Shown one piece after another: positions 23,237-41,746 of a stretch of 41,746 nt of DNA (position 1 is its first letter; each line of letters opens with the position of its first letter). The stretch is from a virus. The position numbers were made by a program, and so were the translations under genes. The notes beneath the pieces were generated by a model. It had not been told where the DNA came from and ran no database searches. It saw only the letters and a list, made by a program, of their open reading frames with translations. Location of the stretch: positions 1-41,746 of IMG/VR virus record IMGVR_UViG_3300012954_001462; one strand, given 5' to 3'.

Positions 23237-23239
23237 ATA
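23232..23239 (+). promoter_or_regulatory. T4-type late promoter (TATAAATA) overlapping the end of the giant gene
   Basis: TATAAATA overlaps the giant gene's stop codon (23234-23236) and lies 19 bases before the ATG at 23259. Transcription would start near 23246, ahead of a TGGAAAG ribosome-binding region. This would supply the fibre genes independently of the 12-kb gene upstream. Confidence 0.75.
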
Positions 23240-26367: not shown

Positions 26368-27285
26368 ATGGCGGAAAAACATGAACCTCAAGGCATTTGT
26401 ATGTTCGCATACAATAACCAAGAATTAGATTATATTAAATTTGCTAGTCTAGCTTCACGTTATGCCAAACACTATATGAATGGAATAAAAGTAGCCCTCA
26501 TTACAGATGAAGGTACTGAAAATTGGCTGAACGAAACTAAGTCACAGCAAGAGATACAATCGTTATTTGATTATATTATAATCAACAATGTTCCGCATGA
26601 AATGAACATGCGTAAACACATGGACAGTCCATGGACAGAATTTAACGCACAATTTACTAATACAAATAAGCATAAAGTTTTTGAATTAACTCCTTTTAAA
26701 AAAACATTGCTGGTAGATACAGACTTTTTGATTATGAACGACTTTTATGAGTATCTGTTTAAAACAGATATTCCTATTGGAATGCACAGGTATGCCGAAT
26801 ATATCGGTGGCGAGCGTCCTTATGTAAATGAGATAACATTAAACGAAGGAGGAATCAGTCATTGGTGGAGTACAATAGTATATTTTGATCAAAGCGAACA
26901 AAGTAAAATATTCTTTGATATGTGGGCTCATGTAAAAGAGCATTGGGAGTACTACAGTTTGTTGTATCAGTTTCCCAAATCATTATTTAGAACAGATTTT
27001 TGTGTAAGTATTGCCGCACATTTGATGAATGGGTTTACAACTGAAGAATTTGTACACGACTTCCTTAATACGCCATTGTTAAACATGGATCAAAAAGATG
27101 ATATTATAGGAATGAACTCACACGAAGACATTATATTCTTAAAACACAATAGGGTTGAACAATGGAAGAATATATTGGTTAGGCATACAAAGCAGAATCT
27201 ACACATTATGAATAAGAGGGCATTAGACAGACATTATTTTGGTCTATTAGAAGGATTAGATAAAGCAGAGGCGATAAATGAGTAG
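26368..27285 (+). CDS. GT-A-fold glycosyltransferase-like protein
   Basis: This 305-residue protein has a GT-A layout: an N-terminal nucleotide-binding region with FASLASRYAKHYMNGIKVALIT and the metal-binding DxD motif at D117-T-D119 in KKTLLVDTDFLIMND. A later ISHWWSTIVYFD segment is typical of the acceptor half. Such enzymes transfer a sugar from a nucleotide sugar to a glycan or protein. Acceptor and donor cannot be told. ATG directly follows the stop of the previous gene. It is the first of three DxD-containing proteins in this operon. Its end overlaps the next gene by 8 bases. Confidence 0.7.
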   Translation: MAEKHEPQGICMFAYNNQELDYIKFASLASRYAKHYMNGIKVALITDEGTENWLNETKSQQEIQSLFDYIIINNVPHEMNMRKHMDSPWTEFNAQFTNTNKHKVFELTPFKKTLLVDTDFLIMNDFYEYLFKTDIPIGMHRYAEYIGGERPYVNEITLNEGGISHWWSTIVYFDQSEQSKIFFDMWAHVKEHWEYYSLLYQFPKSLFRTDFCVSIAAHLMNGFTTEEFVHDFLNTPLLNMDQKDDIIGMNSHEDIIFLKHNRVEQWKNILVRHTKQNLHIMNKRALDRHYFGLLEGLDKAEAINE

Positions 27286-28156
27286 AGGATTTATTACACT
27301 AGGTATCGACACCGATGAAGATAAAATTAAACACTGTTATACATTAGCTTGTAGTTTAAAAATAATCGAACCTACTGCTGAAATTTGTTTAGTAGTTGAC
27401 AAAGGTCGATTAGATATGATAAGTGATTATTACTCACATGTTTTTGACTACATAGTTGAATTACCATACGGCAATAGTGCATACAAAGATGGTTTCCATG
27501 GTATGAATTTATGGCAACTTTATCATTGTACACCTTTTGATGAAACTATATATTTAGATTACGATACAATACTAGTTAATGTTGATTTAGATACTCTATG
27601 GGAACTAATGGCAACCAATGATATAAGTTTTCCAGGAAATGCTAATAATTATAGAGGATTTTCTGCTAATCAAAATTTAAGATTCGAATATGAAATACAG
27701 TATAAACTTCCTAAATTGTATTACAATGTAATATACTGGAAACAAAAATCTGCACTAGCTATTGAATGGTTTAAAATGGCAGATCCAGTCCTACAATACT
27801 GGAGAGATGTATACAGCAAAGTTTTTACTGATAAAAAACCGCAAGACTTTGAAAAGAATGTTTTGTGTAATCTAGTGACACATTTCTTAGATTTAGAATT
27901 AGATACAAGAATCTTCTTAAATAATCATACAGACCTACATAGATTTTCACATGGAATATTTGACGAAGATGTACCAGACCGATGGACTGAGTTTATGAAT
28001 ACTTGGGTAACCAATCATCAGAAGATACAAATAGAAAACTATATACTACCTAGTGGAATTATTCACTACAGCGACGAAACATTTTTAACCGATGAAGTAA
28101 TGCATGTCTACAGAACCAAGTTTATTACAGACTCTAAAAAAAGAAAAAGCACCTAA
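27278..28156 (+). CDS. GT-A-fold glycosyltransferase-like protein
   Basis: This 292-residue protein has a GT-A pattern: KHCYTLACSLKIIEPTAEIC near the start, then FDYIVELPYGNS and the DxD motif at D94-Y-D96 in ETIYLDYDTILVNVDL. The later LYYNVIYWKQKSALAIEWF segment resembles GT8-like families. The C-terminus has PSGIIHYSDETFL, like the closing His motif of retaining GT-A enzymes. It overlaps both neighbours, by 8 bases upstream and 53 bases downstream. A cytosolic sugar transferase is likely; the acceptor is unknown. Confidence 0.7.
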   Translation: MSRGFITLGIDTDEDKIKHCYTLACSLKIIEPTAEICLVVDKGRLDMISDYYSHVFDYIVELPYGNSAYKDGFHGMNLWQLYHCTPFDETIYLDYDTILVNVDLDTLWELMATNDISFPGNANNYRGFSANQNLRFEYEIQYKLPKLYYNVIYWKQKSALAIEWFKMADPVLQYWRDVYSKVFTDKKPQDFEKNVLCNLVTHFLDLELDTRIFLNNHTDLHRFSHGIFDEDVPDRWTEFMNTWVTNHQKIQIENYILPSGIIHYSDETFLTDEVMHVYRTKFITDSKKRKST

Positions 28157-29111
28157 AAAGTGGTGCGTCTACTATGACGATGATACTGGCGAAGTTATAA
28201 CAGTCACTAATCGTGTCTTAGATGAAATAAAATCACCTCATTTTTTTACAGAAAATGATGATGCTCGAAAAATTCTTATGGGCATTATCGACCCTAAGAA
28301 ATTTTCTGTGCTTGAAATTGATACTGGATTTATATTAGGAGAAAAATCAGCAGTATTGCGTATCAAAGAAGCTGAACAGTCTCTTAGTATGATTCCTGTT
28401 AATGATAAAGCCAAAGCAGATGTGAATATTATTATGTATGTCAACAGTTGGAAAATGGAAGTAAATTTTGACCAAGACACACTTTATAAGATGACTGGTA
28501 AACGCTATTTTAAACAAGCAACGATTAATCCAGAGAGAGATGGAAAATACGACAACATTACATTATACATTATTAAAGATAAAGATCCTAACTTCTTAAT
28601 TAAAAAAATTGATATTGATCCCGGCGAACTTATTGAACAAGGGTACTTGCTATTTGATATGAGTGCATTTAGAAACGTTTGTGGACTTGGAGAAATGAGT
28701 ATTTTAACAAAGAAAATCTTTAAGACTTATCGTGTCACAAAGAAAGCAACATTTGTTGGTGCTGATTATACAAGCAGACGTAGCCTCAGAAGAAGGCATA
28801 TTGTTCCACAGATAAGTAATGAGGAAGTGTTATGTGATTTTACCATAATACCAAAAGAGCAATCGTTCAGTATGAGAAGTAATTTTAAAGATCCAACAAC
28901 AGTTAAAATTTATCATGATGTTGGTTTATATGTAACAGATAAAAATGATCCTAATAGACTATTAGGAACATTGATCTTACCTAAATCAGCTGTTGGGTAT
29001 AACTCCACAGTAGAAATTGAATCTGACTTAGATCTCAATAACAGTGCATTTCTATTAAAAGAAGAAAACAGAACTATAACATTTGACATAACAGAGGAAT
29101 CGCCAGTATGA
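28104..29111 (+). CDS. Phage protein of unknown function
   Basis: I do not recognise this 335-residue protein. Its first part (KKWCVYYDDDTGEVITVTNR, later FFTENDDARKILMGI) and its later KKIFKTYRVTKKATF and TSRRSLRRRHIVPQ show a mixed, mostly beta protein without membrane segments. The ATG at 28104 is inside the previous gene, giving a 53-base overlap; no later ATG gives a sensible start, as the next Met is far inside the conserved-looking region. It ends with an ATGA overlap into the next gene. The position between glycosyltransferases suggests shared expression, not a known role. Confidence 0.6.
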   Translation: MSTEPSLLQTLKKEKAPKKWCVYYDDDTGEVITVTNRVLDEIKSPHFFTENDDARKILMGIIDPKKFSVLEIDTGFILGEKSAVLRIKEAEQSLSMIPVNDKAKADVNIIMYVNSWKMEVNFDQDTLYKMTGKRYFKQATINPERDGKYDNITLYIIKDKDPNFLIKKIDIDPGELIEQGYLLFDMSAFRNVCGLGEMSILTKKIFKTYRVTKKATFVGADYTSRRSLRRRHIVPQISNEEVLCDFTIIPKEQSFSMRSNFKDPTTVKIYHDVGLYVTDKNDPNRLLGTLILPKSAVGYNSTVEIESDLDLNNSAFLLKEENRTITFDITEESPV

Positions 29112-30085
29112 CAATAATACCAATAACAGAATTTGACATTGTATACATTAGCTATGATGAGCCAAACGCTGAACAAAATTATGCAAATTTATTAGAAAAA
29201 TGTCCGTGGGCAAAACGTAGTCATGGAGTATGGGGCAGTGATGCGGCACACAAAGCGGCGGCGGCAATGAGTGATACAGACAGATTTGTAACTGTAGACG
29301 CTGACAATATTGTCAGAGAAGACTTCTTTAATGTTGAATTGGACATGGACAGGATTAAAGATACAGATGTAATTAGTTGGGCAGGTAAAAATGCTGTAAA
29401 CGGATTGGTATATGGCAATGGAGGTATCAAATGTTGGCCCGTAGATGTTGTTAACAAAATGCGTACACACGAAGCCGCACCAGAAAGTGATAAAGCCGCA
29501 CAGGTTGATTTTTGTTGGAATATACAATATGTGCAAATGAATAATATCTATTGTGATGTTGCTAACAATGCTAGTCCACTACAGGCATGGAGAGCAGGTT
29601 TCCGCGAAGGTGTAAAGATGGGACTAGAAGGCGGAGACGTAGTTGATGCAAAAGATCTTAAAAAAATCTTTCACGAAAATTACAAAAGGCTATTAGTATG
29701 GATGACTGTTGGCGAAGATGTAACAAATGGTTTATGGGCAATCTATGGTGCTAGACTTGGATGTCACATGACCAATGTTGAAAGACGCAAGTGGGACTGG
29801 CGTAATGTGAGAGATTTTGATTGGTTAACTAACTTCTTTAATACAGAATTATTTCCTGAGTTTGAAGGTGGAACTGAAATGTGTGTAAACACTGGAGTAA
29901 CATGGGATTGGGATAAACTTAAAAAGAAAACAGTAGAACTTGGTGTAGATCTTCGCGGTGAGCTAGATTTAGAAATTTCAGATATGGACAAAGTCGGTAG
30001 TAGATTCTTTAAAATTGTTTACAAAAATCCACACAGACTTGGTGCAATGGTTAGAGAAAACCAAGTTGATGACAGTATCGAATAA
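29108..30085 (+). CDS. GT-A-like glycosyltransferase-family protein
   Basis: The protein has 325 residues. Residues 1-70 read FDIVYISYDEPNAEQNYANL, then AKRSHGVWGSDAAHKAAAAM and RFVTVDADNIVREDFF, with a DxD motif at D64-A-D66. This agrees with the nucleotide-binding half of GT-A enzymes. A further block YGNGGIKCWPVDVV resembles their acceptor region. Four successive Ala codons (29255-29266) are GCG GCG GCG GCA. It starts by ATGA overlap and contains the start of the next gene in its last 17 bases. Sugar transfer is inferred from the motif and neighbours. Confidence 0.6.
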   Translation: MTIIPITEFDIVYISYDEPNAEQNYANLLEKCPWAKRSHGVWGSDAAHKAAAAMSDTDRFVTVDADNIVREDFFNVELDMDRIKDTDVISWAGKNAVNGLVYGNGGIKCWPVDVVNKMRTHEAAPESDKAAQVDFCWNIQYVQMNNIYCDVANNASPLQAWRAGFREGVKMGLEGGDVVDAKDLKKIFHENYKRLLVWMTVGEDVTNGLWAIYGARLGCHMTNVERRKWDWRNVRDFDWLTNFFNTELFPEFEGGTEMCVNTGVTWDWDKLKKKTVELGVDLRGELDLEISDMDKVGSRFFKIVYKNPHRLGAMVRENQVDDSIE

Positions 30086-30851
30086 ATCTACAGTACTAGT
30101 TACTGGCGGATTTGATCCTCTACACAGTGGACACATAGCATATTTTAAAGCCGCTAGAGCATTAGGCGACAAGCTAGTCGTTGGTATAAACAGTGACGAT
30201 TGGCTAATGCGTAAAAAAGGAAAAGCGTTTATGCCTTTTGCAGAACGTGCGGCAATTATCAGAGAACTAGAAGTAGTAGATAAAGTAATTGGTTTCGATG
30301 ATTCAGACGATACAGCAAATCAAGGAATATTTTTAGCACTATGTACCAACGCTGGTAAGCTAATATTTGCAAATGGTGGAGATAGGACTGATACAACTAC
30401 ACCCGAATATCGTATGTATGGAGATCATCCAGATGTAAAATTTGCATTTGGAGTAGGAGGTAATGAAAAAAAGAATTCAAGCAGTTGGATATTAGATGAA
30501 TGGAAGACACAAAAGACTGAACGTGATTGGGGATACTGGCGTGTACTTGATGACAAAAACATAGTAAAAGTTAAAGAACTTGTAATTAATCCAGGATGTA
30601 GTTTAAGTGATCAAAAACATCAACATCGTTCAGAACATTGGTATATATTAGAAGGAAGAGTAACTATAGAATGCGAATACCCACCTAATAGCGACACCGA
30701 GTGGTCTAAAACTGTATTAACTCCTCATCAAACATGTATTATTGATCCAGATGTTTGGCACAAGACTACTAATATAGGCGATGCTCCTGCACACATTCTC
30801 GAAGTACAATATGGTGAAAAGTGTGTTGAAGAGGACATCATAAGACGATGA
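30069..30851 (+). CDS. Cytidylyltransferase-cupin fusion protein
   Basis: This 260-residue protein has two parts. The N-terminal 140 residues are a nucleotidyltransferase of the glycerol-3-phosphate cytidylyltransferase/RfaE2 type: TGGFDPLHSGHIAYFKAA, with HxGH at H19-H22, then INSDDWLMRKKG. The C-terminal part from about residue 165 is a cupin like the end of ManC-type mannose-phosphate isomerases: H184 and H186 in KHQHRSEHWYILEGRV and a later DPDVWHKTTN. It probably makes a CDP- or ADP-activated polyol or sugar, with the cupin as isomerase, epimerase or sensor. ATG 30069 is chosen over the TTG at 30015, which would add a non-conserved extension. It ends in an ATGA overlap with the first radical SAM gene. 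Confidence 0.8.
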   Translation: MTVSNKSTVLVTGGFDPLHSGHIAYFKAARALGDKLVVGINSDDWLMRKKGKAFMPFAERAAIIRELEVVDKVIGFDDSDDTANQGIFLALCTNAGKLIFANGGDRTDTTTPEYRMYGDHPDVKFAFGVGGNEKKNSSSWILDEWKTQKTERDWGYWRVLDDKNIVKVKELVINPGCSLSDQKHQHRSEHWYILEGRVTIECEYPPNSDTEWSKTVLTPHQTCIIDPDVWHKTTNIGDAPAHILEVQYGEKCVEEDIIRR

Positions 30852-32308
30852 CAGACACAAACAATTACGAACTTGATCCAGATCCAGAAACAGCCGCACA
30901 ACTAGTAAAGCCAAAACTTGCTGAAATAAGTGATAGTATGTGTATGGCTAAATGGTTGTGGACTAGTATTCATTTAACCAATGGAACAACTAATAGTTGC
31001 TACTTGCCTCCTATACATAAAATTAATGCAGAAGATCTTAAAGATAATCCAAAAGCATTACACAATACACCAGAGAAAAAAGAACAACGAGCTATGATGC
31101 TCAAAGGAGAACAGCCTAGCGGGTGTGACTACTGTTGGAATATTGAAAAGATGGATCGTAATTTTAATAGTGATAGACACTATCGAAGTAGCGAACCATG
31201 GGCACAGGCTGGTTGGAAAGATGTATTAGCAAAAGGCGCAGACGGTGACATAGAACCTACAAGTATGGAAATTAATTTTAATCATGCTTGTAATTTAGCG
31301 TGTAGTTATTGTAGTCCACATTTAAGTAGTGCCTGGGCTAAAGACATTGAAGAGAATGGACCTTATCCAACCAAAGTACCTCACAATAGCATTGACTATT
31401 TTAAACAAATAGGACAATATCCTATTAAAAACAGAGATCACAATCCATATGTAGATGCATTTTGGGAATGGTGGCCAGAACTTTATCCAAAACTAAAAAA
31501 CTTTAGAATGACAGGCGGTGAGCCGCTCATGGATAAAAATACATTCAAAGTTTTAGATCATGTCATTGACAATGGCAGAGACGATTTAGAAATGGCTGTA
31601 ACTACAAATTGTAGTGTACCTGATAAATTGTGGAATAACTTTGTTGATAAAGTAAGTTTCATAAGTGAATATAAGAAACTAAAACGTTTTCGTATGTTTG
31701 TAAGCGTAGATGGTTGGGGTAGACAAGCTGAATATATGCGTCATGGATTAGACTTTGATCGCATGTGGAACAATGTAAATAATTATCTAACTAGAGTAGA
31801 CGAAGGATTGGTAACATTTATTGTAACGTTCAACATGCTTAGTTTGCCTAGCATACAGCGTTTAATGGAAGGTATATTAGAATTACAGCGTATTCATAAT
31901 GTTACAAAAAGTAGAAGAGATGACAAAGGTAAAATTATAGTATATGGACACAGTAAAGTATTTTTGGATACTCCTATGCTAAGACATCCAGAGTGGCAAA
32001 GTTTACAGCTTACACCTGAAAGCCATTGGTATCTTGCTGATGAGTGTTTAGCATTTATGAAAGAGAATCAAGACAGGCACAGAGCTAGTAGATGGGTAGG
32101 ATTTAAACCACATCAGATTGAAAGATTTGATCGTAGTATTGAATTTATGAAGCAAGGATTTGATAACGACCAGCAGAAACAAGATGCAGAAGAAAATTTT
32201 GTTAGATTCTTTGGAGCACATGACTACAGACGTAAAACAGATTTTAGTCATACATTTCCAGAGTTTGCACAGTTGTTCTTAGATTGGAAAGAAAAGTACA
32301 ATGTTTAA
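30848..32308 (+). CDS. Radical SAM protein 1, N-terminal twitch/SPASM-like cysteines
   Basis: This 486-residue protein carries the radical SAM signature C148-x3-C152-x2-C155 in HACNLACSYCSP and the SAM-binding MTGGEPLM motif. In front of it lie four extra cysteines, C32 (MCMAKW), C51 (NSCYLP) and C93/C96 (GCDYCW), spaced like a twitch/SPASM cluster site. The enzyme would use one 4Fe-4S cluster to split SAM and a second, auxiliary cluster to bind or oxidise the substrate. It is closely related to the next gene: both have NPYVDAFFEWWP-like and HNT..KK motifs. It begins by ATGA and overlaps the next gene by 8 bases. The substrate is unknown. Confidence 0.85.
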   Translation: MTDTNNYELDPDPETAAQLVKPKLAEISDSMCMAKWLWTSIHLTNGTTNSCYLPPIHKINAEDLKDNPKALHNTPEKKEQRAMMLKGEQPSGCDYCWNIEKMDRNFNSDRHYRSSEPWAQAGWKDVLAKGADGDIEPTSMEINFNHACNLACSYCSPHLSSAWAKDIEENGPYPTKVPHNSIDYFKQIGQYPIKNRDHNPYVDAFWEWWPELYPKLKNFRMTGGEPLMDKNTFKVLDHVIDNGRDDLEMAVTTNCSVPDKLWNNFVDKVSFISEYKKLKRFRMFVSVDGWGRQAEYMRHGLDFDRMWNNVNNYLTRVDEGLVTFIVTFNMLSLPSIQRLMEGILELQRIHNVTKSRRDDKGKIIVYGHSKVFLDTPMLRHPEWQSLQLTPESHWYLADECLAFMKENQDRHRASRWVGFKPHQIERFDRSIEFMKQGFDNDQQKQDAEENFVRFFGAHDYRRKTDFSHTFPEFAQLFLDWKEKYNV

Positions 32309-33983
32309 AAATATTGATTACTATACTGAACGTGACGTAATGAAAAAACATTACGGCTGTGATACCATGTGTACAGCAAAGTTTTTAAGTAGTACAATAT
32401 ATTTACAAACAGGTGAAACACATAGTTGTTATCATCCGTTGCCTCATAAAATTCCATTAGCGGAAATTAAAAAGAATCCAAGTGCATTACATAATACACA
32501 GTTTAAAAAAGATAGAAGAGAACAAATGCTCAAAGGCAATCGCCCGAGCGAATGTAACTATTGTTGGCGTGTCGAAGCAATGGGCGAAGAACACATAAGT
32601 GACAGAATTATTAAAAGCAAAAACGAAACACTACTTACGCCTGAAGCACACAAAATAATATTAGAAAAAGGTTGGAAACATGATTACAATCCTACATACT
32701 TAGAAATAAGTTTTGGTAATGAGTGTAACATGAGGTGTGCATACTGTCATCCTAAGGCTAGCAGTGCTTGGATGAAAGAGATGCAACTAAAAGGTTCGTT
32801 TGAAAATGCAGAACACCTACAAGTGGTAGAACAAGAAATTTACGAAGAAACAAGCAATCCTTATGTAGATGCTTTTTTTGAATGGTGGCCCAGTTTAAGA
32901 AAAGATCTTAAAGTACTTAGGGTAACTGGTGGTGAACCATTACTACAGCAAAACGTATGGAAATGGTTAGACATGCTAGAACAATCGGACGATTGTAAAG
33001 ATATGATTTTTCAACTCAATACTAATCTAAATGTTAAAAACAAACTTGTACATAGGTTAATACAAAAAGTTGATAAGTTACTCAAAGAGAAAAAAATAAA
33101 AAAGTTTGCAGTATTCACAAGTGTTGAAAGTTGGGGAGATCAAGCCGCATATGCTAGGAACGGATTAGACTTGGATTTATTTGAAACAAATTTAGAAAGT
33201 GTAATGAGGGGACTGTCTCACCACGATGAACATTTGTTTAGTGGTGTCAAGATAATGAATACATTCAATATACTAAGTGTTACAAGCTATGTCAAGTTCT
33301 TAGAAAAAATAAGATATTGGAGAGGTAAGTTACATAACAAAAAATATTGTCCTAAGATTACATTTGATATTCCACATTGTACAGAACCAAATCAGTTTTC
33401 ATTGATTGGGTTACCAGATGATTATGAAAGTTACTTTGAGTATATTACTGAATATTTTGATGAATGGAGTTGGCCAAATAATCAAAGCAAGTATGGAAAA
33501 TCTCACCACGACACAGTTAGTAGTAATTACTTTAGTAGAGAAGAAGTTAAAATGTGGGATAGGGTAATTAGCTATTGGCACAGTATTGTAGAACAAAGAG
33601 GAAAAGTAAGACAAACTGATGAAAATCAATACTTGCAGTGTAGACAAATTGATGATGCTAGAAGAAACTTTATATTGTTTATCAAAGCAACAGATAAAAG
33701 AAGAGGTACTAACTTTAAACAAGTGTTCCCTGAAATGAGCGAGTATTATGATTTGTGTGCTACATTAGAAGATATTAAAAACATTGAATATAATAATGAA
33801 TGTAAGCAATACCTAATGAAAGATACTATAGATGGAACCGCTGTAGAGTTTCATTGGGATGATGATTTTGTTTGGCAACACCCAAAACTAGCAAAAAGTA
33901 TTTTAAATTGGCGGCGTATTAGAAACTTACCTACAAAAATTTATGACAAAGATGAGCTCAAGGATCAGATAGGCTATGTCTAA
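32301..33983 (+). CDS. Radical SAM protein 2, N-terminal twitch/SPASM-like cysteines
   Basis: This 560-residue protein has C142-x3-C146-x2-C149 in NECNMRCAYCHP and VTGGEPLL further on. The preceding cysteines are C24 (and C20), C43 (HSCYHP) and C85/C88 (ECNYCW). It is a paralogue of the previous gene, sharing the HNTQFKK, NPYVDAFFEWWPSL and C-terminal FPEM features, but is about 70 residues longer because of a C-terminal extension with Trp/Asp-rich sequence (VEFHWDDDFVWQHPKL). It overlaps both neighbours by 8 bases, so it is translated in the same run. The reaction and substrate are unknown. Confidence 0.85.
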   Translation: MFKNIDYYTERDVMKKHYGCDTMCTAKFLSSTIYLQTGETHSCYHPLPHKIPLAEIKKNPSALHNTQFKKDRREQMLKGNRPSECNYCWRVEAMGEEHISDRIIKSKNETLLTPEAHKIILEKGWKHDYNPTYLEISFGNECNMRCAYCHPKASSAWMKEMQLKGSFENAEHLQVVEQEIYEETSNPYVDAFFEWWPSLRKDLKVLRVTGGEPLLQQNVWKWLDMLEQSDDCKDMIFQLNTNLNVKNKLVHRLIQKVDKLLKEKKIKKFAVFTSVESWGDQAAYARNGLDLDLFETNLESVMRGLSHHDEHLFSGVKIMNTFNILSVTSYVKFLEKIRYWRGKLHNKKYCPKITFDIPHCTEPNQFSLIGLPDDYESYFEYITEYFDEWSWPNNQSKYGKSHHDTVSSNYFSREEVKMWDRVISYWHSIVEQRGKVRQTDENQYLQCRQIDDARRNFILFIKATDKRRGTNFKQVFPEMSEYYDLCATLEDIKNIEYNNECKQYLMKDTIDGTAVEFHWDDDFVWQHPKLAKSILNWRRIRNLPTKIYDKDELKDQIGYV

Positions 33984-35262
33984 GCTATTACATAGTAAAA
34001 ACTTTTGTATGGCACCTTGGATAACAATGCATCTTTGGCCCAGCGGGGAAGCGTTTCCTTGTTGTGTTGTATTACCAGACGAGGATAAACCTTTTAGTGG
34101 AAAGTTAGGAAATATCAGAGACAGTAGTTTATCTGATTTATGGAATAGCAGTCTAATGAAAGAGTTGCGTATTAATATGCTTGCTGACAAGCCAAGTCAA
34201 ACTTGTGAACGTTGCATACAACAAGAACAAGCAGGCAATCAATACACACTAAGACGAGAACTAAACCAAAACTTTGCAGATTACTTTCACAGGACAGAAG
34301 CTACTAATACAGATGGAAGTCACGACGATCCAAAAATATACTATTGGGACGTTAGATTTAACAATCTTTGTAATCTAAGATGTTTGAGTTGTAGTGTAAA
34401 ATTTAGCAGTAGTTGGTATCAAGACAGTATTAAAAGACACGAATATGATGGACCCGCATTACTACAATTACCTAAGAGTTTTTGGAAACAAGCACTTCCT
34501 TTAATAGGCGAAGTCAAACATGCTTATTTTGCAGGCGGCGAACCTTTAATGACCAAAGAGCATTATGAGATGTTAGACACATGGATTGAATCAGGCAATA
34601 CTGATTTAAAGATAAGTTATACAACTAATTTTACACAAACTAGATTAGGCAAACGTTATATATTTGATTACTGGAATAAGTTCAGTAATGTACATGTAGG
34701 TGCTAGTTTAGATGATAATTGGCAACGGGCAGAATATTTGCGTAAAGATACAATATGGACTGATATTGTAAAAAATCGCAAAGAGATGATTAGAGCAAGT
34801 CCTGATACTAGATTCTTTTTAAGCAGTACTATTAGCATCTTTAATGCACTACATTGGCCCGATTTCCATAAAGAATGGATAGAAGAAGGTCTAGTAGATC
34901 CTATAGAGTTCAACCTCACATTGCTTACTCACCCTGAGTATTTGAGTATGACTGTTATGCCAAAAGAATTTAAGAAACGTGTTGAGAAGCGTTGGATTGA
35001 ACATCAAGAATATATTGAACGTGCATTTCAAATAACACATCCAGACTGGCAGTATGATCCTTCAATAGTACAAAGTATGATTGACGGATTGCTTAAATAT
35101 CTATGGAGCGAAGATAATTCTCAACTCATTGACAGGTTTCATGATGAACAACGTTGGATGGATAAAATCCGTGACAACGATTGCTATGAAGTCTATACTG
35201 AGTTGGAAAAACTTAAAGAGTACGGTGATCACTATGAGAAAGTGGTTAACAGAGGATGGTAA
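33976..35262 (+). CDS. Radical SAM protein 3, N-terminal SPASM-like motif
   Basis: This 428-residue protein starts with a SPASM-type motif before the core: C11 in NFCMAPWITMHLWPSG, C29/C30 in AFPCC, and C77/C80 in TCERC. The radical SAM cluster site is C132-x3-C136-x2-C139 (NLCNLRCLSCS), followed by FAGGEPLM. The remaining TIM-barrel half includes YLRKDTIWTDIV. It is a close paralogue of the next gene. Normally SPASM follows the barrel, so the order here is reversed. The family includes enzymes acting on peptides and glycans, and I cannot choose. It overlaps the previous gene by 8 bases. Confidence 0.88.
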   Translation: MSKLLHSKNFCMAPWITMHLWPSGEAFPCCVVLPDEDKPFSGKLGNIRDSSLSDLWNSSLMKELRINMLADKPSQTCERCIQQEQAGNQYTLRRELNQNFADYFHRTEATNTDGSHDDPKIYYWDVRFNNLCNLRCLSCSVKFSSSWYQDSIKRHEYDGPALLQLPKSFWKQALPLIGEVKHAYFAGGEPLMTKEHYEMLDTWIESGNTDLKISYTTNFTQTRLGKRYIFDYWNKFSNVHVGASLDDNWQRAEYLRKDTIWTDIVKNRKEMIRASPDTRFFLSSTISIFNALHWPDFHKEWIEEGLVDPIEFNLTLLTHPEYLSMTVMPKEFKKRVEKRWIEHQEYIERAFQITHPDWQYDPSIVQSMIDGLLKYLWSEDNSQLIDRFHDEQRWMDKIRDNDCYEVYTELEKLKEYGDHYEKVVNRGW

Positions 35263-36515
35263 TGAACGACAAAAAGTATAATCTAACTGAGAGCAAATTC
35301 TTTTGTATGGCTCCGTGGATTCATATGCATGTATGGCCCAATGGTCGTGCATTTCCTTGTTGTTTGGCAGATCCTGCTAAAGGAGATTACGGAAATACAA
35401 ATCAAAGTACACTTAAAGAATTATGGAACAGTGATGTTGCTAAAAAACTTAGACTTAATATGCTAGCAGACAAACCACACCCTACTTGTACAAGGTGTTA
35501 TAGATTAGAAGCTGACGGCGATGCACATACACTACGCATTAATATGAACAAAAAGTTTGGTGAAAAGCACTATAGCAAAGCTCTTGAAACACAACAAGAC
35601 GGAACGCACAATAATGTAAACTTCACATACATGGATTTTAGATTTAGTAATTTATGTAATATGAGTTGTAGGAGTTGCAGTCCTACATTTAGTACACAAT
35701 GGTACGACGACTTTATGAAAAAGTTTGGTGAGGTACCCAACGATGTTGCACCTCAAAAATTTATACAACTTAAAAACAAAAAAGGTTTTGTAGAAGAACT
35801 TTGGCCCTACTTGGATACTGTTGAAGAAGTTTACTGGGCAGGAGGTGAGCCGCTTGTAACTGATATGCATTGGAAAATTATGAACTATTGGATTGAGACT
35901 GGCAGAGCTCATGAAGTAAATGTTTTGTACACAACTAATTTTAGTCAGCTTACTTACAAAAGACAAAATGTATTGGACTTATGGAAAAAATTTAAAAGTG
36001 TAGAATGTACAGCAAGTTTAGATGGTATGGGCAGTCGTGCTGAGTATATAAGAAAAGGCACAGTATGGAGTGATATAGTTGCAAATAGACAACTAATGAT
36101 GGAACAAACACCTCACATTAATTTTGATATTACACCAACAGTAAGTTGTATGAACGTACATCATTTACCAGACTTTCACGAAGATTGGGTAAACAAAGGA
36201 TTACTTAAAGTAGGACAGATGCGTATCAACAACTTACTAGATCCTGATTACTTTTGTATGCAAGTATTGCCTAAGGCATTTAAAGATAAAATTACAGCTA
36301 AATGGGAACAGCATATTCATTGGGTTCAAAACCATCCTCAATATGATCCAGGACAAAACTTTGTTCGCAGTGCAGAAGGTATGCTTAACTTTTTACACAG
36401 CGAAGATCGCAGTGACTTATTGGAAAAAACTATTCATCAGCTTGAAGAATGGGATCCTATTAGGCATGAAGATTGGCGTATAGCAATACCTGAATTAGCA
36501 GAGGCACTAGCATGA
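35262..36515 (+). CDS. Radical SAM protein 4, N-terminal SPASM-like motif
   Basis: This 417-residue protein has C15 in FFCMAPWIHMHVWPNG, C33/C34 in AFPCC, and C76/C79 in TCTRC ahead of C132-x3-C136-x2-C139 (NLCNMSCRSCS) and WAGGEPLV. It matches the previous gene in domain order, cysteine positions and the segment YIRKGTVWSDIV, so the two are a tandem duplication that has since diverged. ATG 35262 is preferred over 35256 because AGAGG (35251-35255) then lies 6 bases upstream and the start forms the TAATG overlap seen elsewhere in the operon. The substrate is unknown. Confidence 0.88.
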   Translation: MNDKKYNLTESKFFCMAPWIHMHVWPNGRAFPCCLADPAKGDYGNTNQSTLKELWNSDVAKKLRLNMLADKPHPTCTRCYRLEADGDAHTLRINMNKKFGEKHYSKALETQQDGTHNNVNFTYMDFRFSNLCNMSCRSCSPTFSTQWYDDFMKKFGEVPNDVAPQKFIQLKNKKGFVEELWPYLDTVEEVYWAGGEPLVTDMHWKIMNYWIETGRAHEVNVLYTTNFSQLTYKRQNVLDLWKKFKSVECTASLDGMGSRAEYIRKGTVWSDIVANRQLMMEQTPHINFDITPTVSCMNVHHLPDFHEDWVNKGLLKVGQMRINNLLDPDYFCMQVLPKAFKDKITAKWEQHIHWVQNHPQYDPGQNFVRSAEGMLNFLHSEDRSDLLEKTIHQLEEWDPIRHEDWRIAIPELAEALA

Positions 36516-37792
36516 GTAAAACTTTTTGCTTACATCCTTTTGTAAATTTAAACAGCAACACTGAAGGTAGTGTGAAGTTATGTTGTAGCATCACTGAAAA
36601 TATACATGCAAAAAATGCTGACGGTAGCGAATTTAATTTTGGCACCAACAGTATAGAAGAGATTTGGTATAGTGATTATATGGTAGATATAAGATCACAA
36701 TTATTAAATGGTGAAAAGCCAAAAGCATGTGACGTATGCTGGCGATTAGAAGATTTAGGAATACAAAGCAGTAGACAAAGTGCTTTTACTGAATACAACG
36801 ATATAGGTCTAAAGCGTGATAGTACTATGCACAGTAGACCTCCGTTGCCAACTAGTTTAGAACTTAGACTAGGAAACTTCTGTAATTTAAGATGCAATAG
36901 CTGTTGGAGTCTGAGCAGTGATAGAATACACGACGAGCGTATGAAAATACTAGATAAAGATTTTAATGTACCTGGTTGGATTCGTAACGAATGGTCAAAA
37001 GAAGTTGACATGGCAAGTTCTAGTAATATGAAATGGTGGCAAAACAAAGACTTCGACAATACAATAAAAAAACTTGCCCCAACACTCAAAAGACTTTATT
37101 TGACCGGTGGTGAACCTACACTTATAAGACGCAATATAGAAATAATGAATATGATATTACAAAGTGGCAATGATAAATGTTATGTTGCACTAACAACAAA
37201 TCTTACACATTGGAATGAAGAGTTTTATGATACACTTACTGAGTTTAAAAATGGCGAAGTGCAGATCAGTATAGACAGTGTGTATGACAGAAACGAATAT
37301 ATTAGATTCCCGACTAAATGGGATCATGTAGAAAAGAACATACTTAAACTTTGGTATAAACTTCCAGAAACATGGAAAATAAAACACTACACTGTATTTC
37401 AAAATTATAACTATGATGATATTCCGCAAATTTTAGATTGGGTTACACAGTTCAAACATAACAACAAAGATCGAGACTTACTTTATATATGGTCTCCTAT
37501 AGTGTTGGATAATCCTCCGTACTTAGATGTTCGCATAGTAGATAGACAAGTAAGACAAGAAGCCGCAGATAGACTTAAAAATTATACTCCTTATTATGAT
37601 AACTTAAACTTATATTGGAATCATGGAGTACAGCAAGCAATTAAGTTATTAGAGTCTGATGCAATGGAAGAAAAAAAGAGACAAAAATTGTTAAGTAGAT
37701 TTAGAGAATTTAACGACACTATGGATCGAAATAGAAAAACAAAATGGTATGAAACATTTCCTAACATTGCTTCAAAGGTATTAGTAGAATGA
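36512..37792 (+). CDS. Radical SAM protein 5, N-terminal SPASM-like motif
   Basis: This 426-residue protein has C6 in TFCLHPFVNLN, C24/C25 in VKLCC, and C73/C76 in ACDVCW before the core C124-x3-C128-x2-C131 (NFCNLRCNSCW) and LTGGEPTL. A segment YIRFPTKWDHVEKN aligns with YVRWPGKWSKWERN in radical SAM protein 7, which suggests these two are nearer to each other than to the rest. Met-rich and Trp-rich linkers separate barrel elements. It begins and ends in ATGA overlaps. The reaction is unknown. Confidence 0.87.
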   Translation: MSKTFCLHPFVNLNSNTEGSVKLCCSITENIHAKNADGSEFNFGTNSIEEIWYSDYMVDIRSQLLNGEKPKACDVCWRLEDLGIQSSRQSAFTEYNDIGLKRDSTMHSRPPLPTSLELRLGNFCNLRCNSCWSLSSDRIHDERMKILDKDFNVPGWIRNEWSKEVDMASSSNMKWWQNKDFDNTIKKLAPTLKRLYLTGGEPTLIRRNIEIMNMILQSGNDKCYVALTTNLTHWNEEFYDTLTEFKNGEVQISIDSVYDRNEYIRFPTKWDHVEKNILKLWYKLPETWKIKHYTVFQNYNYDDIPQILDWVTQFKHNNKDRDLLYIWSPIVLDNPPYLDVRIVDRQVRQEAADRLKNYTPYYDNLNLYWNHGVQQAIKLLESDAMEEKKRQKLLSRFREFNDTMDRNRKTKWYETFPNIASKVLVE

Positions 37793-38796
37793 ATGAACTA
37801 GTTAGGATAGAACAATCAGGAGAACCATTTGTTAATATTACATGGCAAGTAAGCAACTTGTGTAACTTTCGTTGCACCTATTGTAATGAATACAACTGGA
37901 ATGGTAGCAATCTAAATTTAGATGTAGAAGCTCTCAAAACAGGATTGACCAAACTGATTGATTATGAACTTGCTAGAGGATATACAAGACTAAAAGTGTT
38001 CTTTAGTGGAGGCGAGCCTTGCTATTGGAAACCTCTTACTAAAGTAATGGATCATATATTAGCAAGCGGAATGAGTGAAGTCAAATTTGCAGTGAATACA
38101 AATTTAAGCAGTAAACTAAAATGGTGGGAAAAGAATGTACACTACTTTGATGATGTAGTAGCAAGCTATCATCCAGAGTTTGTAAACAGCGATCATTACC
38201 TAGAAATATACAAGTTCCTTAGCGACAAAGTAAATTACTTGTGTGGTCGTATGATGATGCATGAACCTACATGGGATCAAGTAATGGATTTTAGTAAACG
38301 TATAAAACAGGAAATGAAAGATGACAACTGGCGTATTGAATACGTTCCGATATTTGAAGAACTAAGTCACACTACTCGACCGTACAACTACAAAAATCCA
38401 GAGCATAAAAAGTTTTTAGAAACTACAAACTTAGAACAAGATATAAAGTTTGGTGTACCTGCTAAAGCTGAAGGTATGGCAAGTGTTGAAGTATATGATA
38501 ATGGATCAGTACAGCCTATTAACTGTAATAGACTGGTAGCAGAAAGTCGCAATTACTTCAAAGGATGGAAATGTTTGATACCAATGGAAAGTATTTTTAT
38601 TAACTGTGAAGGTAAAATAGATATGGGTAGTTGTGGTGTTATGCCTCAAGTAGGAAACTTGTACGATCCTAATCTACAATTAGATTTACCAGAAAGTGTG
38701 ATATGTCCAAAAAGTCATTGTCACTGTGGTACAGACATTTATATAACAAAATACAAGGATAGAAATTATGGAACAACTAGTACAGCGATACTTTGA
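37789..38796 (+). CDS. Radical SAM protein 6, core first, C-terminal SPASM-like cysteines
   Basis: This 335-residue protein is the shortest and differs in layout from the other six. The cluster site C25-x3-C29-x2-C32 (NLCNFRCTYCN) is right at the N-terminus, followed by FSGGEPCY. The extra cysteines are at the other end: C262, C273 and C282 (WKC, NCEGKIDMGSC) and C306, C311 and C313 (ICPKSHCHC), which is the ordinary SPASM position. The C-terminus thus resembles an auxiliary-cluster domain of peptide- or nucleobase-modifying enzymes. It overlaps the previous gene by ATGA and contains the start of the next gene in its last 29 bases. Confidence 0.85.
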   Translation: MNELVRIEQSGEPFVNITWQVSNLCNFRCTYCNEYNWNGSNLNLDVEALKTGLTKLIDYELARGYTRLKVFFSGGEPCYWKPLTKVMDHILASGMSEVKFAVNTNLSSKLKWWEKNVHYFDDVVASYHPEFVNSDHYLEIYKFLSDKVNYLCGRMMMHEPTWDQVMDFSKRIKQEMKDDNWRIEYVPIFEELSHTTRPYNYKNPEHKKFLETTNLEQDIKFGVPAKAEGMASVEVYDNGSVQPINCNRLVAESRNYFKGWKCLIPMESIFINCEGKIDMGSCGVMPQVGNLYDPNLQLDLPESVICPKSHCHCGTDIYITKYKDRNYGTTSTAIL

Positions 38797-39088
38797 TGCG
38801 TGGAATGCAAACAGTGTAGAACAGCTAAGACCTTTACTACATGATGCAGTAACACTAACAGATTGGGAAATTAGTGAAAGTGGACTAGAAGCAGTTATCA
38901 ATGCTAATCAAAAGATATTTGATGCAGTACCAGGAATACACGTTACTGTACACGATATGGCTACAAGTACAAATCAAGTTATGGCACAAATAACAGTGCA
39001 TGTCAATGAACAAGAACAATTATCAGTTATTGACGTACTAACTATTAGTAACGACAAAATAACAAGTATCAAGGCATATAAAAAATAA
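38768..39088 (+). CDS. NTF2/SnoaL-like small protein
   Basis: This 106-residue protein has the SnoaL/NTF2 fold pattern. MEQLVQRYFDAWNANSVEQL is followed by LLHDAVTLTDWE and GLEAVINANQKIFDAVPGIH, then the beta strands VTVHDMATSTNQVMAQITVH and LSVIDVLTISNDKITSIKAY. Such proteins are small cone-shaped barrels that bind or isomerise small molecules or serve as partner domains. Placed between two radical SAM genes, it may bind a product or intermediate, but that is only inference. It starts within the previous gene and ends in a TAATG overlap with the next. Confidence 0.75.
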   Translation: MEQLVQRYFDAWNANSVEQLRPLLHDAVTLTDWEISESGLEAVINANQKIFDAVPGIHVTVHDMATSTNQVMAQITVHVNEQEQLSVIDVLTISNDKITSIKAYKK

Positions 39089-40314
39089 TGGAAGAAGAAA
39101 CCTATTGCGTATTAGCTTACAATCATTTGAGTATTGATCCACAAGGTCAAGTACGTCCTTGTTGTAACTATAACCTTCACAAGCAAAGTTTTAGAGATAC
39201 AAAATGGAAATTTAAAAGCATATGGAATAGTGATAATCTTGCTGACTTGTTAACAGGGCAACCGCATGTAGAATTAAGAAAAGACATAGAGAAAAATCAC
39301 AAGCACACATTCTGTGATAGATGTTGGGTAAGCGAACTTAATGGTGGCGAAAGCTATCGTAATATGTGGAATGATATTTTTAAATGCGGTACCAAAGACA
39401 AGTTTCAGCGTGAGATAAAAATTGAGTATGTAGAGTTTACACTAGGCAACAAATGTAATATACAATGTAGAATGTGTAACCCTTGGAGTAGTAGTATGTG
39501 GGCTGACGAGATTTATAAAAATCCGCAGTTAGATTTTTGGGATACTGCACCACATCTGAACAAAGATAGATTTGAATGGTACTACACTCCACAGTTTGAT
39601 AAAATATTTGCAGAAATATTACCCACACTTAAACATGTAAACATGCTAGGCGGTGAGCCATTGTTTAATGCAAAGTACTATGAGATACTACAACATATAA
39701 TAGATAGCGGAAGATCCAAAGATATTGTAGTACAGTTCAACAGCAACATGCTAGCAGTACAATCTAAAGTATACGACTTGTGGAAGCAGTTCAAAAGTAT
39801 ACACATCAATATGAGTTGTGACGGTGTTGAAGGTGTAAATGAATATGTTAGATGGCCTGGCAAATGGAGCAAGTGGGAACGAAACTTAAATAGAGTATTT
39901 GAATTACAGCAAGAACTAGGAGAGGACAAACTAAGATTACAGGTACACAGTACATTGAGTAGTTTAACATGGCTTGACTTAGGTAACTTGTACAACTATA
40001 CCAAAACATTACCTATAGGTCCAACGTTACCTTTTCTTATACAAGTGACACAACCTGCTCAGATGGACGCAATACATTTACCGCAACCACTCAAAGACAA
40101 AGGCTATGAACAAGCTATCACAGCAATAGAAAATGCTGATGCAGAAGATTGGGAGGTGTCAAACAATCGCAGTTTATTAGAGCATGTAATGAATACAGAG
40201 CGTGATCCGGATAAGTGGGAAAAGTTTATAGTAGAAACAAATCAACTTGACAAAGTACGCAAACAAAGCATACTTTCGTTTATACCTGAATTCGAAGAAT
40301 ACTGGCATGAATAA
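39088..40314 (+). CDS. Radical SAM protein 7, N-terminal SPASM-like motif
   Basis: This 408-residue protein has C7 in TYCVLAYNHLSIDPQGQ, C25/C26 in VRPCC, and C76/C79 in FCDRCW before the core C123-x3-C127-x2-C130 (NKCNIQCRMCNP) and LGGEPLF. It thus has the same front-loaded auxiliary site as radical SAM proteins 1-5. Similarity to protein 5 is visible in YVRWPGKWSKWE. It is placed beyond the NTF2-like gene and overlaps the downstream glycosyltransferase by 8 bases. The substrate is unknown. Confidence 0.87.
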   Translation: MEEETYCVLAYNHLSIDPQGQVRPCCNYNLHKQSFRDTKWKFKSIWNSDNLADLLTGQPHVELRKDIEKNHKHTFCDRCWVSELNGGESYRNMWNDIFKCGTKDKFQREIKIEYVEFTLGNKCNIQCRMCNPWSSSMWADEIYKNPQLDFWDTAPHLNKDRFEWYYTPQFDKIFAEILPTLKHVNMLGGEPLFNAKYYEILQHIIDSGRSKDIVVQFNSNMLAVQSKVYDLWKQFKSIHINMSCDGVEGVNEYVRWPGKWSKWERNLNRVFELQQELGEDKLRLQVHSTLSSLTWLDLGNLYNYTKTLPIGPTLPFLIQVTQPAQMDAIHLPQPLKDKGYEQAITAIENADAEDWEVSNNRSLLEHVMNTERDPDKWEKFIVETNQLDKVRKQSILSFIPEFEEYWHE

Positions 40315-41446
40315 CTTGCATACAATTAGTGAATCCCACAGACCTTTGCGTGGAACCACACTTGATCTTATTTCTCAAGGCAGTAAACATTGTCTGGTGC
40401 TGGATACACCTTTTCATTTAGCACACACTGATATACCTTTTGATCAAGTACATTATTTTTCAAATTTAGATACTATCTATCCAGACGCATGGCAGGACAT
40501 ATTAGATAGAAAAACAAAACTTATATTCATGTTTACAGATTGGTGGCACACAGTAAATGTAAATGAAACTCACAATCAGCCGAGTGGTAATTTAATTAGT
40601 TTAGACCTTTATAAAATTTGTTATGAACTTTGTAAACGCTATAGCATCTTAGATAACAGTAGTTTTATAAGTCCTAGTAGTATACAATATGTAGAACAGT
40701 TCGACGATTGGCCTATAGTAAATTACAACGAACCATTTAATAGATACTTTGAATTCTCTCGTGACATTGAGGTATTGTATAATACAACACCAATGCAAAA
40801 ACATTTTTTATGGCTTAATAGAAGAAGTAGAGAGCATAGAATGTATGCTCAACATCAAGCATACAAAATGGACTTGTTTAATAATTGTATATATAGTTTA
40901 CACGATTTAGAAAATTGGTCTGACCAAGAATTTACTAAGTTTCTAAGCGAGTATTTGGATCCTAAAGATATTGATCTAACTTTTAGAAAATTAAAAAAGA
41001 GATTGGATCACGGTTATAGTGCAGTTACAGATAAACAACATTTGTCTGAAATAACAGATTTAAAATACTACAGTGAACAAACTTATTTAGATATTGTTGG
41101 AGAATTTAATTGTAGTAATCACAAAGTTTTTCTAACCGAAAAAGTAAGTAGGAGTATTGTATTAGGAAAACCTTTTGTGGTGTTTGGAGATAGAGGAAGT
41201 TTACATGAACTTAGATCCTTAGGGTTTCGCACATTTGGTGACTTCTGGGATGAACGTTATGATAAACTTAGTACATCAAAACAGCGTATAGATGCCGCAC
41301 TACAAACGCTAGATTGGATAAGAAATAATATTGATATCACACAAGGATACAGCAACGATATGATAGAAATATTAGAATATAATCGCAAGCACTATAATAC
41401 AATATGGATGCAAAGTCAATTGGAGTTATTTAAAAAAATACTATGA
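40307..41446 (+). CDS. GT10-like glycosyltransferase-family protein
   Basis: This 379-residue protein is recognised mostly by its C-terminal half. FLWLNRRSREHRMYAQHQAY resembles the GT-B donor-binding region, and VFLTEKVSRSIVLGKPFVVF followed by GSLHELRSLGFRTFGDFWDE is a pattern of fucosyltransferase-like (GT10-related) phage proteins, where the F.TEK motif binds the nucleotide. The N-terminal half has no clear motif. ATG 40307 is chosen over an upstream in-frame start at 40247 that would read through 60 bases of the previous gene. It probably adds a sugar in the same pathway as the upstream enzymes. It overlaps the following partial gene by ATGA. Confidence 0.65.
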   Translation: MNNLHTISESHRPLRGTTLDLISQGSKHCLVLDTPFHLAHTDIPFDQVHYFSNLDTIYPDAWQDILDRKTKLIFMFTDWWHTVNVNETHNQPSGNLISLDLYKICYELCKRYSILDNSSFISPSSIQYVEQFDDWPIVNYNEPFNRYFEFSRDIEVLYNTTPMQKHFLWLNRRSREHRMYAQHQAYKMDLFNNCIYSLHDLENWSDQEFTKFLSEYLDPKDIDLTFRKLKKRLDHGYSAVTDKQHLSEITDLKYYSEQTYLDIVGEFNCSNHKVFLTEKVSRSIVLGKPFVVFGDRGSLHELRSLGFRTFGDFWDERYDKLSTSKQRIDAALQTLDWIRNNIDITQGYSNDMIEILEYNRKHYNTIWMQSQLELFKKIL

Positions 41447-41746
41447 AACCGCAACAAGTAATAGAACAAGTTACTGATATGGCAATATGGGAAAATGCTG
41501 TATGGGTTAATGCTGTAGAAAAAGTATTCTTTGTACCAATTTGGAGAAATGCTAATACTGAGTTTATGCATCTTGCAGAACAGTTTGGATACACACTAGA
41601 ATACGATTACGATCTCACGGACTATACAGGATATGCATTTGTCAGACATCCAAACAAAAGAATAGCAGGACAAATATGGCGGGCAATGCAAAACCAAAAC
41701 TATAGTTTAGAAGAATGTTTACATTTTATTAACAGCAATGACTTTA
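41443..41746 (+). CDS. Possible sulfotransferase-like protein (3' end outside window)
   Basis: An ATG in an ATGA overlap opens a frame that stays open to the edge, giving 101 visible residues starting MKPQQVIEQVTDMAIWENAV. A segment VFFVPIWRNANTEFMHLAEQ resembles the first strand and phosphate-binding loop of sulfotransferases, and YAFVRHPNKRIAGQIWRA resembles their 3'-phosphate-binding RxP..R motif. The usual Lys/Gly/Thr loop residues are not all present, so activity is uncertain. If correct, it would transfer sulfate from PAPS to a glycan, which fits the glycosyltransferase context. The frame is well supported; the function is tentative. Confidence 0.55.
   Translation, partial: MKPQQVIEQVTDMAIWENAVWVNAVEKVFFVPIWRNANTEFMHLAEQFGYTLEYDYDLTDYTGYAFVRHPNKRIAGQIWRAMQNQNYSLEECLHFINSNDF

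Follow-up and report, generated by a model that had tools for sequence, protein, structure and literature searches.

The viral DNA considered here is a stretch of 41,746 nt (IMG/VR record IMGVR_UViG_3300012954_001462, positions 1 to 41,746; hereafter the window), in which seven radical S-adenosylmethionine (SAM) open reading frames (ORFs), named w1-w7, and one SnoaL/NTF2-like ORF fill positions 30,848-40,314 on the + strand. The seven radical SAM genes are intact, distinct, co-conserved and under purifying selection, and all seven recur together in eight other virus records. The reading that we prefer, and to which we give an even chance, is that the array carries out the radical tailoring of a phage-made glycan, within an operon for making and attaching an unusual glycan; if every acceptor is counted, be it virion or host, glycan tailoring has a somewhat better than even chance. 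The genes of the array are given below. ORFs were called mechanically, longest first, and N_Twi marks members of the NCBIfam model NF033640 (N_Twi_rSAM), with their scores.

30848..32308, + strand: radical SAM gene w1 (N_Twi; NF033640, 332 bits)
32301..33983, + strand: radical SAM gene w2 (N_Twi; NF033640, 268 bits)
33976..35262, + strand: radical SAM gene w3 (N_Twi; NF033640, 338 bits)
35256..36515, + strand: radical SAM gene w4 (N_Twi; NF033640, 386 bits), the protein modelled
36512..37792, + strand: radical SAM gene w5 (N_Twi; NF033640, 298 bits)
37789..38796, + strand: radical SAM gene w6, of a different kind (PF04055, just over its cut-off)
38768..39088, + strand: SnoaL/NTF2-like protein of 106 amino acids (aa) (SnoaL_2, PF12680, E 1e-15)
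39088..40314, + strand: radical SAM gene w7 (N_Twi; NF033640, 291 bits)

All seven radical SAM ORFs carry both CxxxCxxC and GGEP, in agreement with the first-pass annotation of this DNA, which had described seven such proteins interrupted solely by an NTF2-like gene. Its statement that every junction overlaps is likewise confirmed: successive overlaps from 30848 to 39088 measure 4, 8, 8, 7, 4, 4, 29 and 1 bases, and gene overlaps extend past the array on both sides. Six of the seven proteins score above the curated 170-bit cut-off of NF033640 (267-386 bits, over nearly the whole model), a subfamily-type model whose name carries no function. The sixth protein of the array, w6 (335 aa), is a non-member (35.5 bits), lacks the N-terminal twitch domain and has conserved extra cysteines at its C-terminus; its nearest family, STM4011, is matched far under the cut-off (54.7 of 200 bits). 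PF04055 gives a patchier picture, its own cut-off being passed by four of the seven (30848, 36512, 39088 and, barely, 37789), while 32301 and 33976 fall under it and 35256 has no match at E 0.01. Membership of the radical SAM superfamily is thus indicated by the motif in all seven and by the barrel in w4, the one protein modelled, whose AlphaFold2 (AF2) model is a confident radical SAM fold (predicted local distance difference test, pLDDT, 94.5); Foldseek matches this model at E <= 0.001 to nine structures, every one a radical SAM enzyme. Chemistry based on the 5′-deoxyadenosyl radical is the hallmark of the superfamily and is predicted from sequence for w1-w7.

The suggestion that the genes look functional because their cluster cysteines are kept holds up, and is strengthened by ratios of nonsynonymous to synonymous substitution (dN/dS) of 0.04-0.12 for each of the seven genes, measured against G001 and G002, two near-identical virus relatives that run beyond the window end (G- and L-numbers denote fetched records and loci). 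Chance ORFs or decayed genes are excluded by these ratios together with the hidden Markov model scores. Recent tandem amplification of one gene is excluded too, since the paralogues w1-w7 are mutually only 24-42% identical, whereas orthologues of the array genes share 90-98% identity in G002 and 64-88% in G005. The six N_Twi proteins of the window share four twitch and three SAM cysteines without exception; the same seven are invariant in 73 of 73 sequences aligned with w4, as is a fifth besides the twitch four, w4 C36.

The twitch domain gives the clearest hint at chemistry. In the N_Twi proteins it matches that of BtrN (sequence profile, E 3e-6), and the spacing of its cysteines, counted by hand, is 18, 43 and 3 in w4 as against 18, 45 and 3 in BtrN. 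The auxiliary cluster of BtrN is described as having four Cys ligands, that of MoaA three, and BtrN as performing the two-electron oxidation of an aminocyclitol (PMC9012708). The six N_Twi proteins appear to share with BtrN a homologous four-Cys twitch domain of similar spacing, with four invariant cysteines available as ligands of a fully ligated auxiliary cluster, so that the likeliest chemistry may be the two-electron oxidation of a hydroxyl. They differ in domain order: the twitch lies C-terminal to the SAM domain in BtrN and N-terminal in the six window proteins. The profile built from the six proteins also matches SkfB, viperin, MoaA and cytosylglucuronate decarboxylase. In the open-licence literature, we found no publication assigning a function or a substrate to N_Twi proteins.

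Homologues of these genes are clustered in viruses. A scan with w4 led to five virus records, three of them near-identical to the window, and in all five w1-w7 stand in the same order, with an ORF of 106 to 120 aa between w6 and w7. A wider profile scan (its profile, also used for scanning bacterial genomes, includes one fragmentary row) added L038, L040 and L041, each having all seven orthologues at 51-87% identity. In L040, w5 precedes w3, and neither L040 nor L041 has the SnoaL gene between w6 and w7, so the SnoaL-like gene is not essential to the set. L038-L042 carry, after w5 or w4, a family, F9, whose scanned member combines a radical SAM with a B12-binding domain. The family is abundant in environmental viruses, where at least 514 relatives were confirmed, and 72 of the 80 best loci contain at least four radical SAM genes, a result opposite to one of scattered single homologues; CxxxCxxC is kept in 415 of 416 viral proteins of at least 300 aa. 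Radical SAM genes had been assumed to occur singly in phages, and this does not stand: G002 has 18 family matches and G001 has 16 (over the cut-off, 13 in each by a hand count of rows), and all of 44 further virus records, taken from 78 and mostly longer contigs, have matches, 43 of them at least five at E <= 0.001 and the richest 21. Such counts include other radical SAM proteins, as the controls indicate: each of 14 control genomes has matches at E <= 0.001, and none of them over the cut-off. Among cultured phages, nt-1, CZ01 and QD01 of Vibrio natriegens have tblastn relatives at 22-25% identity, the four matches of KVP40 stay under the N_Twi cut-off, and K566 has two that exceed it.

The array does not stand alone, and its placement among glycosyltransferase-like and activated-sugar genes, as first proposed, is upheld by Pfam, profile and fold evidence. 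Upstream of it, and at the window end, lie the following genes.

23259..23858, + strand: first fibre-block gene (taken from the ATG that follows the promoter element; longest ORF from 23199)
23870..24781, + strand: fibre/virion-like protein fib5 (PHROG virion and tail-fibre matches among others; conserved neighbour)
24785..25957, + strand: fibre-like protein fib4, with a (GY)n loop (putative fibre, from its place)
26020..26367, + strand: p115, a 115-aa protein between the fibre and glycosyltransferase genes (conserved neighbour)
26368..27285, + strand: GT8-like glycosyltransferase 1 (family profile matches glycogenin, E 2e-6)
27278..28156, + strand: GT8-like glycosyltransferase 2 (same glycogenin-matching GT8 family profile)
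28104..29111, + strand: F15 protein (PHROG of unknown function)
29108..30085, + strand: GT-A-like protein GTA (invariant DxD)
30069..30851, + strand: fusion of a nucleotidyltransferase (cytidylyltransferase-like, RfaE/TagD type) with a ManC-type cupin (ATG start; longest ORF from 30015)
40307..41446, + strand: family F1 (ATG start; longest ORF starts at 40247; weak match to a PHROG of unknown function)
41443..41746, + strand: 5′ part of a uridine diphosphate (UDP)-sugar-dehydrogenase-like gene, cut by the window end (the longer G002 copy matches PF00984 and PF03721)

Among the ten fibre-side and glycosyltransferase-like window proteins scanned, nine have no Pfam match; fib4 has neither a PHROG nor a Pfam match, and F1, which we take to be glycosyltransferase-like by its C-terminal motif only, has none in NCBIfam, Pfam or the PDB. 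For GTA, a PDB sequence search returned no significant match, and its N-terminal half (residues 3-153) appears GT-A-like when the model is compared (Z about 10). Searches with tblastn for GTA, GT8 and p115 over cultured phages gave nothing useful.

The order fib5, fib4, p115, GT8, GT8, often one variable gene, GTA and then the array is conserved, and among the 80 viral loci that the radical SAM profile retrieved GTA is present in 58, GT8 in 50 and p115 in 44. A search seeded with GTA, which avoids the radical SAM seed, gave at least 593 confirmed relatives, of which the best 80 were taken (at least three contigs are common to both sets of 80). Here p115 is found in 67 loci, two or more GT8 genes in 62 and radical SAM genes in 40, in 33 of which a radical SAM gene adjoins GTA. 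The other 40 have no radical SAM gene within the stretch examined, a figure that is an upper bound on absence, because nine of these loci end 1.6 kb or less from the first GTA. All 20 loci without radical SAM genes that were looked at closely (L181-L197 and similar) have GTA itself tandemly repeated, as two or three copies. The core thus occurs with and without the array, which marks the fibre/glycosyltransferase core as constant and the array as an optional extension. In one of the loci without radical SAM genes, L181, the gene following GTA ends like the methyltransferase-like family MT18. We found no description in the open-licence literature of this conserved core with its array.

Downstream of the seven genes, G001 and G002 continue with F1, the UDP-sugar dehydrogenase, a C-methyltransferase, an epimerase and a DegT aminotransferase, then with a ribulose-phosphate epimerase, a SIS isomerase and a carbamoyltransferase. 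After the carbamoyltransferase region, eleven more radical SAM genes (s1-s11) form a second array in G002, and beyond it lie genes that include two Asp_Arg_Hydrox (2-oxoglutarate-oxygenase-like) members. Since the window ends inside the dehydrogenase gene, the second array is only presumed for the virus studied here.

Two kinds of late-promoter element lie ahead of the fibres and the core.

23232..23239, + strand: TATAAATA, a T4-type late-promoter element heading the fibre genes (matching position in five of five relatives)
25978..25985, + strand: CATAAATA, a late-promoter-like element 42 bases before p115 (same place in three of five relatives)

Three of the five relatives are near-identical to the window, and the sequence context of the element at 23,232 was printed for three of the five. 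The window has just two copies of TATAAATA, at 496 and 23,232, each on the + strand and 20-30 bases upstream of a gene start; with a mean of 7.3 occurrences in shuffled sequences (at least two in 98 of 100 shuffles), it is rare there. On the - strand, positions 2-421 match a late sigma factor. For the fibres, late expression is likely; for the core and array it is plausible, as judged from these elements. A terminator scan gave 13 candidates as against 7.7 ± 2.8 in shuffles; three lie on the + strand, with 3-4 G-C pairs, and two of these are inside the array and one is in w1.

We infer the sugar substrate, the two-electron oxidation and the acceptor from what is observed directly, namely the genes, their order and conservation, one modelled fold and the homology of the twitch domain. 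In the scheme that we favor, the downstream enzymes would make activated sugars, which the glycosyltransferases would add to an acceptor. The radical SAM enzymes would each remove hydrogen at a single site on the sugar carbons, one after another, and the product of a hydroxyl oxidation could then be aminated, C-methylated or carbamoylated by later enzymes. The acceptor would be cytoplasmic or built in the cytoplasm, with virion fibres as our first guess and a host surface glycan as our second. The conserved order of fibre, p115, GT8, GT8, GT-A and array provides a strong context for the N_Twi family, and makes a glycan on fibres or on the host surface the candidate target. Radical SAM enzymes perform chemistry that few others can, and if virions do carry radical-tailored sugars, then phage host range would have a chemical layer that the fibre sequence by itself does not reveal. 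A connection to Bdellovibrionota would mean that predatory bacteria of this phylum share the chemistry. A more elaborate version, which we regard as quite unlikely, would have an assembly line of up to about 20 radical SAM enzymes per genome acting on the phage's own tail-fibre glycan and giving it a sugar structure not known elsewhere, with swaps of enzymes, and not of fibre sequence, diversifying the adhesin, and a sister system in Bdellovibrionota acting on these bacteria's own surface glycan.

Several observations weigh against tailoring of a phage-made glycan. When the w4 model is compared using VIA-align, the structure that we take to be CteB, together with anSME (Z 11.6-11.7), and SuiB (11.5) stand beside DesII (11.1), so that peptide enzymes are tied with a sugar enzyme and the modelled fold favours neither peptide nor sugar; in the SAM part, the six-protein profile matches best 8vpo, an entry whose name says no more than radical SAM core domain protein. 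GTA also resembles nucleotidyltransferases such as IspD and MobA (Z 8.9-9.1) and its Foldseek TM-scores are low, which leaves its glycosyltransferase role short of proof. Where the core occurs without radical SAM genes, the genes that follow GTA (15 of 18 family representatives scanned) are mixed and include thymidylate synthase, desaturase and AAA proteins; sugar families among 70 representatives of the virus-side neighbours are mostly seen once each, and bacterial neighbours include many unrelated families; no enrichment is claimed. A sigma-70-like TTGACA-18-TATAGT (11 of 12 positions) at 25,965-25,994 overlaps CATAAATA and is among the two best sites of the sigma-70 scan (87 sites versus 84.7 ± 9.9 in shuffles), so that the core need not be late-only. 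No fibre families are labelled in the Bdellovibrionota loci, a finding that counts equally against an array acting on virion proteins. Finally, in the Agrobacterium phage Atu_ph07 radical SAM genes at the matching place lie beside a gene ending in CHSSCHASCHNSRSRR, which suggests peptide modification there.

The last point leads to the alternative that the array modifies proteins, cross-linking, epimerising or oxidising residues of virion proteins such as the (GY)n loop of fib4, and thereby hardening or diversifying the adhesin. Many characterised SPASM/twitch enzymes act on peptides, as the literature listing also indicates, and the fold of w4 finds CteB, anSME and SuiB near the top of its matches. 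The fibre genes lie directly upstream of the array region, a GY-repeat loop is present in fib4 of the window, G002, G005, L035-L040 (where fib4 is present) and L107, and in Atu_ph07 it is gp170, with a Cys/His-rich tail, that stands beside the radical SAM genes. Yet the loop is absent in most other radical SAM carriers listed, no short precursor gene of the type known for ribosomally synthesized and post-translationally modified peptides (RiPPs) exists within the array, where overlapping junctions leave no intergenic room, and the context is rich in glycosyltransferase-like genes; we consider protein modification unlikely. The fib4 loop, which was found in ten listed ORFs, some from the same records, was rejected as a general substrate because of its absence in most of those other carriers. 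A role in remodelling the host surface, in which the phage would alter lipopolysaccharide or capsule against superinfection or re-adsorption with the help of host export machinery, overlaps with our preferred reading and differs from it in the acceptor; it seems to us somewhat unlikely. It is the published reading for the glycosyltransferases of the pelagimyophage host-recognition cluster (PMC7029224), and on a plasmid of Brachyspira hyodysenteriae a cluster of glycosyltransferase and rfb genes includes six radical SAM genes (PMC4267127). The Bdellovibrionota affinity of seven of the eleven second-array genes, and the patchiness of s11 in that phylum (see below), a pattern known from surface-glycan islands, fit this as well, and the sigma-70-like match before p115 would permit earlier expression. 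The late-promoter elements and the continuity with the fibre block suggest instead an action with virion assembly, and the array 1 genes w1-w6 lie in virus-only clades. Serotype-converting O-antigen modification of the gtrABC type uses a membrane flippase and a membrane glycosyltransferase, but neither these nor a polymerase turned up when the phage region, in the window, G001 and G002, was put through a crude hydropathy scan (clear membrane proteins, none of 16 in the window; borderline cases, one of 58 in G002 and two of 41 in G001). Hypermodification of DNA or RNA bases for protection of the phage genome is, in comparison, very improbable. Radical SAM genes do take part in some phage base modifications, and KVP40 carries QueC-like and radical SAM genes together, but the window genes sit in the virion block, behind late-promoter elements and beside fibre genes, and no nucleic-acid-modifying partner was seen in the scanned set, which comprised genes of the window and part of those of G002.

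Multiple radical SAM genes in phages are already in print. The T4-like marine virus TARA_ERS488813_N000010 is reported to have 12 (Nishimura 2017, PMC5332604) and thus resembles the window in having several in one virus; they are discussed there, in the text accessible to us, as Fe-S-cluster metabolism, with no gene order, fibre/glycosyltransferase core or substrate given. The pelagimyophages have a hypervariable host-recognition cluster described as containing tail fibres, GT8, rfaE, UDP-glucose dehydrogenase and radical SAM cassettes (Zaragoza-Solas 2020, PMC7029224). The layout of the window, with a fibre and glycosyltransferase region behind baseplate genes, would fit such a cluster, but its baseplate gene is nearest to those of jumbo phages, and the seven-gene set and the core do not figure in the sections of that description available. 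On the B. hyodysenteriae plasmid five adjacent radical SAM genes and one more are placed among glycosyltransferases and rfb genes (PMC4267127); this is a bacterial plasmid, likened here to the window by gene content. Radical SAM and glycosyltransferase genes are also said to be enriched in Tasman Sea phages (PMC7150976), and 261 viral genes have been annotated ahbD, a label that was doubted (PMC9301287). To this our study adds the conserved core before the array, the BtrN-like twitch, the late elements, the downstream sugar-nucleotide-like enzymes and the Bdellovibrionota-like second array.

The type of virus can be approached through the genes at the start of the virion block.

7282..7644, + strand: baseplate wedge protein, which we take to be gp25-like (PHROG baseplate wedge subunit)
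7644..11171, + strand: baseplate wedge protein (nearest cultured relatives: jumbo phages Atu_ph07, Phosso and SCTP-2)
11168..23236, + strand: 4022-aa ORF, likened to the giant virion structural gene of Atu_ph07 by place and size alone (in Pfam, only a weak carbohydrate-binding module match)

The baseplate protein matches 60 cultured phages, the best being Agrobacterium Atu_ph07 (490 kb), Sinorhizobium Phosso and Salicola SCTP-2, and the 25 relatives listed of these 60 are jumbo phages. In Atu_ph07 a giant virion gene lies in the same place, with a run of radical SAM genes about 5 kb further on. From these relatives and this layout, the window is probably part of a jumbo phage. Atu_ph07 and the window thus agree in the succession of related baseplate gene, giant virion gene and radical SAM cluster, but the Atu_ph07 radical SAM proteins have, as read by eye, C-terminal cysteine motifs instead of an N-terminal twitch, and no glycosyltransferase is annotated in the stretches viewed, no dedicated search having been made. 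The cluster (L155, 3998-11070) comprises three annotated radical SAM genes and an ORF of 304 aa that is radical SAM-like but is annotated, as gp164, as hypothetical. The neighbouring gp170 adjoins the cluster, and its CHSSCHASCHNSRSRR end resembles a modified-peptide tail.

A tree built from 473 radical SAM proteins places w1-w6 in clades with viral members only, as far as the levels listed; the fourth supported clade of w7 is mixed. Seven of the eleven second-array genes (s1, s2, s4, s7, s8, s9 and s11) have Bdellovibrionota as their closest or dominant tree neighbours, in clades that are partly small; the tree class 'MAG?' lumps Elusimicrobia and other contigs from metagenome-assembled genomes (MAGs), putatively chromosomal, with Flavobacteriales and Rhizobiales loci. 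We treated 18 loci as being of Bdellovibrionota type, 16 by their title, with L133 titled Oligoflexia and L132 only 'bacterium'. The trio s1, s2 and s11 occurs together in 10 of the 18, nine of these having GTA or MT18. Three such genomes, including that of L132, have 33, 27 and 22 matches, 19, 12 and 13 of them over the cut-off by hand count, and their islands lie, as read by eye, among panBC, serS and rpoB operon genes. In the 42 non-array island proteins scanned, further radical SAM proteins are accompanied by two family matches of GT2 type, one to UDP-sugar dehydrogenase and one to PMT_2. An s11 orthologue of over 60% identity is present in 3 of 59 genomes of the phylum. There are hints, then, from the resemblance of the second array to Bdellovibrionota arrays, of exchange with, or infection of, such bacteria, although the prominence of Bdellovibrionota may come from sampling, as the genome scan used one peptide pattern.

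Among other candidate bacterial loci, L140 was rejected, since the contig, filed as a Rickettsiales MAG, has the fibre/p115/GT8/GTA core and is viral; this contig, NZHE01000012.1 (L140, L165-L167), has 17 radical SAM-matching ORFs and, as read by eye, tricarboxylate-transporter genes. Over a plasmid collection, tblastn gave no match for w5 and, for s7, a single Azospirillum plasmid. The Bdellovibrionota islands L161-L163 contain recurring pairs of small membrane-protein genes among the radical SAM genes, as well as two SGGLDS ATP-pyrophosphatase-like genes, one of them with a QueC match.

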